In this document: positions 27,261-27,687 of the stretch, in pieces
How the letters are laid out: every line of letters starts with the position of its first letter
Numbering within the stretch: the stretch's first letter is position 1
Position numbers and translations under genes: made by a program
The notes under the pieces: generated by a model
What the model was told of the DNA's origin: nothing
Seen by the model: only the letters and a program-made list of their open reading frames with translations
Databases searched by the model: none
DNA from: Chloroflexota bacterium
GTDB taxonomy: Bacteria > Chloroflexota > Dormibacteria > Dormibacterales > Dormibacteraceae
Direction: 5' to 3'
DNA: 64,000 nucleotides
Assembly (NCBI GenBank): GCA_005882115.1
Contig: VBEG01000038.1
Location: 1 to 64,000 of the forward strand

Positions 27261-27280
27261 GTCTCCTCATATCGTATTTA

Positions 27281-27319
27281 TTGGGCGCAGTTAGAATTGC
27301 TGCGCCCAATTTCCTTTTA
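27281..27319 (+). terminator. rho-independent terminator downstream of the RNase H-like gene
   Basis: TTGGGCGCAG-N9-CTGCGCCCAA followed by TTTCCTTTT. Confidence 0.75.
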
Positions 27320-27333
27320 TTGCAGGAGACAAA

Positions 27334-27687
27334 ATGGCACCCGAGGAAGCACAGCAAAATGCACCACGGAGACGGGGACGTCCGCCGGGATCGAAAAATC
27401 GCACGCGTCGCAAGCGCGCTGAAGGTGGGGAGCTTGTCACGCGACTCAATACGATGGTCGCCAAGCTGATCAGCGAGAACCGAACGCTTCGCCGCCAGGT
27501 CGCGAAATTGGCCACCAAGGGCACGGGCACCGCGTCCAAAACAGTGGAGCGAGGCCTACGCACGATCTCGAAGCGGGTCGAGCGAGCCCTCGGCGGCAAG
27601 ACAACCCGCCGCCGTCGCACCACCGCGGCTCCGGCCAACGGACGCCGTCGCAAGGCGACCACCCGGAGACGGCGAGCTTCGTCCTAG
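27334..27687 (+). CDS. small basic DNA-binding protein: AT-hook, leucine zipper, Arg/Lys-rich tail
   Basis: RRRGRPPGSKNRTRRKR then VTRLNTMVAKLISENRTLRRQVAKL then RRRRTTAAPANGRRRKATTRRRR; AGGAG ribosome-binding site. Confidence 0.75.
   Translation: MAPEEAQQNAPRRRGRPPGSKNRTRRKRAEGGELVTRLNTMVAKLISENRTLRRQVAKLATKGTGTASKTVERGLRTISKRVERALGGKTTRRRRTTAAPANGRRRKATTRRRRASS

Follow-up and report, generated by a model that had tools for sequence, protein, structure and literature searches.

HU is among the most widespread chromosomal proteins of bacteria. The described systems closest to the protein studied here, which we call the zipper protein, share a common layout with it, not ancestry. HbhA of M. 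tuberculosis is a nucleoid-associated protein that loops and bends DNA and requires its tail for DNA binding (PMC10665949). Like the zipper protein, which it matches in composition and architecture, it joins a helical coiled-coil region to a basic tail at the C-terminus; its tail is, however, rich in Lys, Pro and Ala, no AT-hook is known for it, and its host additionally possesses HU (HupB) and Lsr2. The likeness is one of layout, and homology is not claimed. PhaF and AlgP of Pseudomonas also combine a helical part with an H1-like DNA-binding tail (PMC9239181), but they carry KPAA repeats, have a longer helical N-terminal domain and serve in granule positioning. The bridging proteins H-NS, Lsr2, MvaT and Rok join a dimerisation module (a coiled coil in MvaT) to an AT-hook-like element for the minor groove (PMC6936261). 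Unlike these, the zipper protein has no folded C-terminal DNA-binding domain: no match to a domain with the (Q/R)GR motif of H-NS and Lsr2 was found, and its C-terminus is predicted to be unstructured. AT-hooks with an RGRP core occur in HMGA and in CarD of M. xanthus, whose RNA polymerase-binding domain was not detected in the zipper protein. To HU itself the zipper protein is unrelated in fold and sequence and lacks the PF00216 domain; what the two would have in common is the cellular role proposed below and a complementary phyletic distribution.

The gene was found in a stretch of 64,000 nucleotides, referred to here as the window, from a family of uncultivated soil Chloroflexi. Our main reading, to which we assign a probability of roughly 0.55, is that the zipper protein is a lineage-specific, zipper-dimerised nucleoid-associated protein in the place of HU. 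The features of the locus are collected in Table 1.

Table 1. Features of the zipper-protein locus (positions in the window)
Feature	Position	Strand	Basis or remark
Gene for RNase H-fold-like protein, 137 aa	26847..27260	+	Directly 5' of the zipper gene; conserved neighbour
Hairpin of 12 bp with a T-rich run after it	27280..27310	+	Between the RNase H-like and zipper genes; terminator-like; genus g1
Shine-Dalgarno-like GGAGAC	27325..27330	+	5' of the zipper-protein ATG
Zipper-protein gene, 117 aa	27334..27687	+	Stop codon included; ORF translation, orthologues
N-terminal AT-hook RRRGRPPGSKNRTRRKR, residues 12-28	27367..27417	+	RGRP cores tallied from aligned or listed orthologues
Leucine zipper, residues 35-59	27436..27510	+	Alignment, family profile against PDB, predicted helix 30-62
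Second conserved amphipathic helix, residues 67-86	27532..27591	+	Alignment, AlphaFold2, hydrophobic moment
Arg/Thr/Ala-rich basic tail, residues 88-117	27595..27684	+	Predicted without secondary structure

A sequence-only reading of the window had described an open reading frame with an AT-hook, a leucine zipper and a basic tail, and re-translation agreed with it in residues and nucleotide span. The frame is a real gene, since it is preceded by a Shine-Dalgarno-like sequence and intact orthologues (43-76% identical, no internal stops) are present in 36 of the 42 genomes from the taxonomic family to which the window belongs. As is usual for nucleoid-associated proteins, its product is small and very basic, with a pI of 12 and 36 Arg and Lys residues versus 7 Asp and Glu. 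The window protein matched no Pfam family at E ≤ 1, no NCBIfam entry and, in a single-sequence search, no PDB entry. Weak Pfam matches of other members (SlyX, ZapB, HALZ, H-kinase_dim and others) were coiled-coil matches that disagreed with one another, and no assignment was based on them. PHROG matches were weak as well and resembled generic coiled-coil matches; an origin from a phage or plasmid was rejected, the protein being unmatched in phage and plasmid records and in viral contigs. AlphaFold2, run on a shallow alignment of three sequences (the window protein, L031 and L032), predicted helices at residues 30-62 and 67-85 and coil elsewhere, with a monomer pTM of 0.29. The mean pLDDT of successive blocks of the first helix was 86, 90 and 78, with about 90 in the middle. 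A Foldseek search with this model gave no meaningful match (best E = 4.5).

The zipper carries the heptads exactly as they had been read from the window, with V35, V42, N49 and V56 in the a positions and L38, L45, L52 and L59 in the d positions. Had homologues failed to conserve these residues, the zipper would have been in doubt; L38, L45, N49 and L52 are invariant in all 30 aligned orthologues, as are M1, G31, N39, I46, R76, R81, V82 and A85. The hydrophobic a/d register was better than that of permuted column orders even when the best of seven registers was allowed (p = 0.005). The ungapped likeness to the GCN4 zipper, with 9 of 26 residues identical in the best stretch, exceeded both plain shuffles (p = 0.0005) and shuffles preserving the heptad pattern (p = 0.0025). 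When the family profile was compared with 177,635 PDB sequences, a cortexillin/GCN4 hybrid and GCN4 came first (E = 0.008, 0.017 and 0.05). On the evidence of this conservation and of GCN4 leading the profile search, the zipper is genuine, and the GCN4 register proposed earlier is borne out by strong purifying selection and by the predicted helix. The two zippers have the heptad register, the a-position Asn and a hydrophobic e residue in common. The profile matches are a structural analogy of the coiled coil and no evidence of descent from GCN4. With its central a-position Asn, the GCN4-register zipper fixed in these genera would be a clear instance of convergence towards the same dimer-specifying solution.

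Outside the zipper the two proteins differ: the zipper protein has no counterpart of GCN4's basic helix before its zipper, and after it another conserved helix and then the basic tail. The basic stretch in front of the zipper is not continuous with it as a helix: it contains GRPPG, part of the Pro-containing AT-hook, and the invariant Gly31 (usually as GG), and coil is predicted up to residue 29. The N-x7-R signature of bZIP proteins is absent from the sequence preceding the zipper. Matches to the Pfam family bZIP_1 were weak and limited to 5 of 30 members (best E = 8.8e-4). A leucine zipper with hydrophobic a/d residues is thus present, with the d-position Leu 38, 45 and 52 and the a-position Asn49 invariant, but the invariant Gly31 and the missing signature rule out a genuine bZIP protein with a DNA-reading helix. 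What stands is a bZIP-like dimerisation element, not bZIP membership.

The AT-hook was confirmed at the residues given for it, and its RGRP core has the basic flanks of HMGA-type hooks (RRRGRPPGSKNR); we take its RGRPPGSKN to be close to the HMGA-type RGRPKGSKN. Unlike HMGA proper, with several hooks and an acidic tail, the zipper protein has one dispensable hook and a basic tail. The hook does not define the family either. Of the 36 orthologues, 25 have an RGRP core; the other 11 (G015, G018, G021-G025, G031, G033, G034 and G038) do without it and all keep the zipper, the second helix and the basic tail. Judged from these sequences, the core unit of the family is therefore zipper, second helix and tail, with the hook as an accessory.

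In the second helix V71, L75, I78, V82 and A85 share one face, R76 and R81 are invariant and R73 and R80 nearly so. The helix is strongly amphipathic (hydrophobic moment, permutation p = 0.0002), and its conservation equals that of the first helix. The sequence-only reading had noted neither this helix, nor the conserved gene upstream, nor that HU is absent. The tail had been likened to histone H1. Its charge and predicted disorder agree with this comparison, but its composition does not: it is made of Arg, Thr and Ala and not of Lys, Pro and Ala, Lys being minor and KPAA or AKKA repeats absent.

Orthologues of the zipper protein are confined to the window's family. None was found in the 68 genomes of three sister families of the class, and a profile of the core alone gave the same distribution, with matches in sister families no better than E = 0.027. 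Among 399 genomes of the phylum, for each of which 11 candidates were scored, the protein was again found in this family only.

HU shows the complementary pattern. Of the 110 genomes of the class 65 contain HU (PF00216): 64 of the 68 from sister families, but only one of the 42 from the window's family. As HU might have been present but below detection, the 42 genomes were searched at E ≤ 1 with a profile made from 15 of the class's HU proteins, some of them very divergent, and every candidate was scored. Genome G021 alone matched well (1.7e-30); the next-best matches reached E = 0.002 and contained internal stops, so an overlooked HU was rejected. The match in G021 (L101) lies on a 4-kb contig (C184) with genes for an orotate phosphoribosyltransferase-like protein, HU and pyrF. 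Since the same assembly contains a separate, native pyrF of the relatives' kind, 44% identical to the one beside HU, this contig is probably contamination. Lsr2, actinobacterial IHF and archaeal-type histones were absent from all 110 class genomes, in searches whose positive controls worked. The complementarity of HU and the zipper protein is suggestive and has no independent replication: the loss of HU and the gain of the gene both map to one clade and may represent a single event or coincidence. Genus g12 (G027, 96% completeness, and G036) has neither protein, and parts of the family thus manage without them. As a separate observation, sister family f3 contains an HU variant: very divergent HU-like proteins (L102-L104, L113 and L114; PF00216 E about 1e-8) whose conserved C-terminal stretch reads KPRWSFPK(A/S)V.

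The zipper protein may thus be a substitute for HU in a family without it. What the data show is the gene with its conservation, zipper register and charge, two predicted helices and a phyletic distribution complementary to that of HU; that the protein dimerises, binds and bridges DNA and has replaced HU is inferred. The earlier suggestion of a bZIP-like dimeric nucleoid or regulatory protein gains in its dimeric nucleoid half from the absence of HU and loses the bZIP mode of DNA reading. In the proposed mechanism, two subunits would dimerise via the zipper (residues 33-60), and the second helix would either fold back, making the bundle thicker, or turn a basic face towards the DNA. DNA would be contacted by the disordered, Arg-rich tails and, in most lineages, also by the N-terminal AT-hooks; this binding would be largely non-specific in sequence, with the hooks raising the affinity where the minor groove is AT-rich. 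Because each dimer would carry two to four such DNA-binding arms, it could bridge or loop DNA, and the protein would perform the general chromosome compaction that HU performs in related bacteria.

In a bolder version, which seems to us doubtful, the whole lineage has lost HU and its chromosome is organised mainly by this zipper-dimerised HMGA/H1-like protein; AT-hook, GCN4-type zipper and basic tail would then make up a convergent, eukaryote-like chromatin recipe in bacteria. A clade without HU and the other common architectural proteins searched for here raises the question of what minimal chemistry a nucleoid needs, and the candidate replacement, which belongs to no Pfam or NCBIfam family and occurs in one uncultivated soil lineage, is directly testable in vitro. 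In a literature search of incomplete coverage, we found no paper joining AT-hook, leucine zipper and nucleoid-associated protein in bacteria, and none on HU-less members of this lineage.

Codon usage was assessed against a reference of ribosomal-protein and elongation-factor genes from the window's own genome. The codon adaptation index of the zipper gene was 0.447 versus 0.70 for the ribosomal set, below that of most open reading frames in the window and below the expectation for its amino acids from window-average codons (z = -2.7). The relatives' genes mostly gave values of 0.41-0.57, and one of 0.62, with this genome's ribosomal reference. Such poor codon adaptation argues against great abundance, although the index is an indirect measure of it and performs poorly for short, Arg-rich genes.

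A further point against a nucleoid role is the basic tail, which might just as well bind RNA, as Arg-rich disordered tails also do. This leads to the main rival, which we consider rather unlikely: the zipper protein would bind RNA or RNA:DNA hybrids and work with the RNase H-fold protein whose gene lies upstream, dimerising through its zipper and holding RNA or R-loops with its tails, while the neighbour cuts or senses the RNA:DNA hybrid. The RNase H-like gene lies directly 5' of the zipper gene and on the same strand at 20 of 20 loci from 11 genera, and like the zipper gene it is confined to the one family. Across the family its products share 76-98% identity; FabI, encoded nearby, is less conserved. 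At six divergent loci (L061, L064, L068, L069, L071 and L072) the other neighbours have moved and the pair has been kept, and it is this persistence that keeps an RNA:DNA-hybrid role in play. The RNase H assignment itself comes from a low-confidence model with RNase H topology and from sub-threshold Pfam matches. By our reading, the conserved D10, E49 and D74 are placed as in RNase HI, and His118 occupies the position of the fourth catalytic Asp. In a Foldseek search with the model, entries of the RNase H superfamily dominated (best E = 0.0035, TM about 0.34-0.41). The window's 137-aa protein has no Pfam assignment, and one divergent member matched PF00075 (E = 0.06) and PF13456 (E = 0.15). 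Adjacency as an argument is weakened by the surroundings of the zipper gene, a wide and broadly syntenic conserved block, and by genus g12, which retains the RNase H-like gene without the zipper gene; in both its genomes the next gene of the block follows directly (L083 in G027, L084 in G036). Moreover, a terminator-like hairpin in genus g1, or a putative promoter in other genera, separates the two genes, so they need not be co-transcribed.

The same leader bears on a further rival, that the zipper protein is a sequence-specific or AT-tract-targeted regulator, either resembling a xenogeneic silencer or acting as an autoregulator on the inverted repeat 5' of its own gene. The hairpin has a loop with -10-like sequences (TAGAAT/TAATAT) and is kept in 14 sequences of genus g1, in which one pair alternates between T-A and C-G and another occurs as G-C, A-T and G-T. 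Its arms and loop are more conserved in sequence than a plain terminator requires. This conserved repeat, the dimeric zipper and an AT-hook close to the RGRPxGSKN type would suit a regulator. The repeat is, however, missing in other genera, most of which have extended -10 sequences like GGTTATACTGC in its place, and it resembles an intrinsic terminator; moreover, the AT-hook is not universal, and the zipper protein has neither a folded DNA-reading domain nor the bZIP basic signature. We regard a regulator as quite unlikely. Most simply, the leader would end transcription of the upstream gene with a terminator and provide the zipper gene with an independent promoter; a promoter scan of the leader gave no full sigma-70-type match, and an Rfam search no match. 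Sequestration of the Shine-Dalgarno sequence by the leader was strong in the window but not consistently stronger than in shuffled controls in 14 relatives, and is therefore not claimed.

Improbable, too, is a granule or partition linker in the manner of PhaF and AlgP, in which the helices would sit on a storage granule or a complex that the basic tail tethers to the nucleoid. The layout of helical module and H1-like tail would fit (PMC9239181). Genes for FabI and an acyl-CoA dehydrogenase are found among the neighbours. Another neighbour we take to be MaoC-like. These are, however, ordinary genes of fatty-acid metabolism in the wide conserved block, none of the 30 members had a phasin domain in its list of families, and the tail is Arg/Thr-rich without KPAA repeats. 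Least probable of all is a helical-hairpin (four-helix-bundle) dimer with a non-architectural adaptor role in place of a GCN4-type parallel zipper: a turn of four residues between the two predicted helices, hydrophobic e/g residues (L34, M41 and I46) conserved besides the a/d positions and weak matches of ten members to the histidine-kinase dimerisation hairpin PF02895 speak for it, but GCN4-type coils are the best PDB relatives, the central a-position Asn is invariant, and the residue of GCN4 that corresponds to I46 is likewise a hydrophobic e residue.

The zipper protein also has divergent paralogues. Two of them, L088 on contig C98 of genome G029 and L089 on contig C56 of genome G020, have tails sharing a terminal TDPQLLERRRQAL(V/A)KARE(A/V)RAA motif, and G029 contains several extra copies of the zipper protein (also on contigs C84, C238 and C259).
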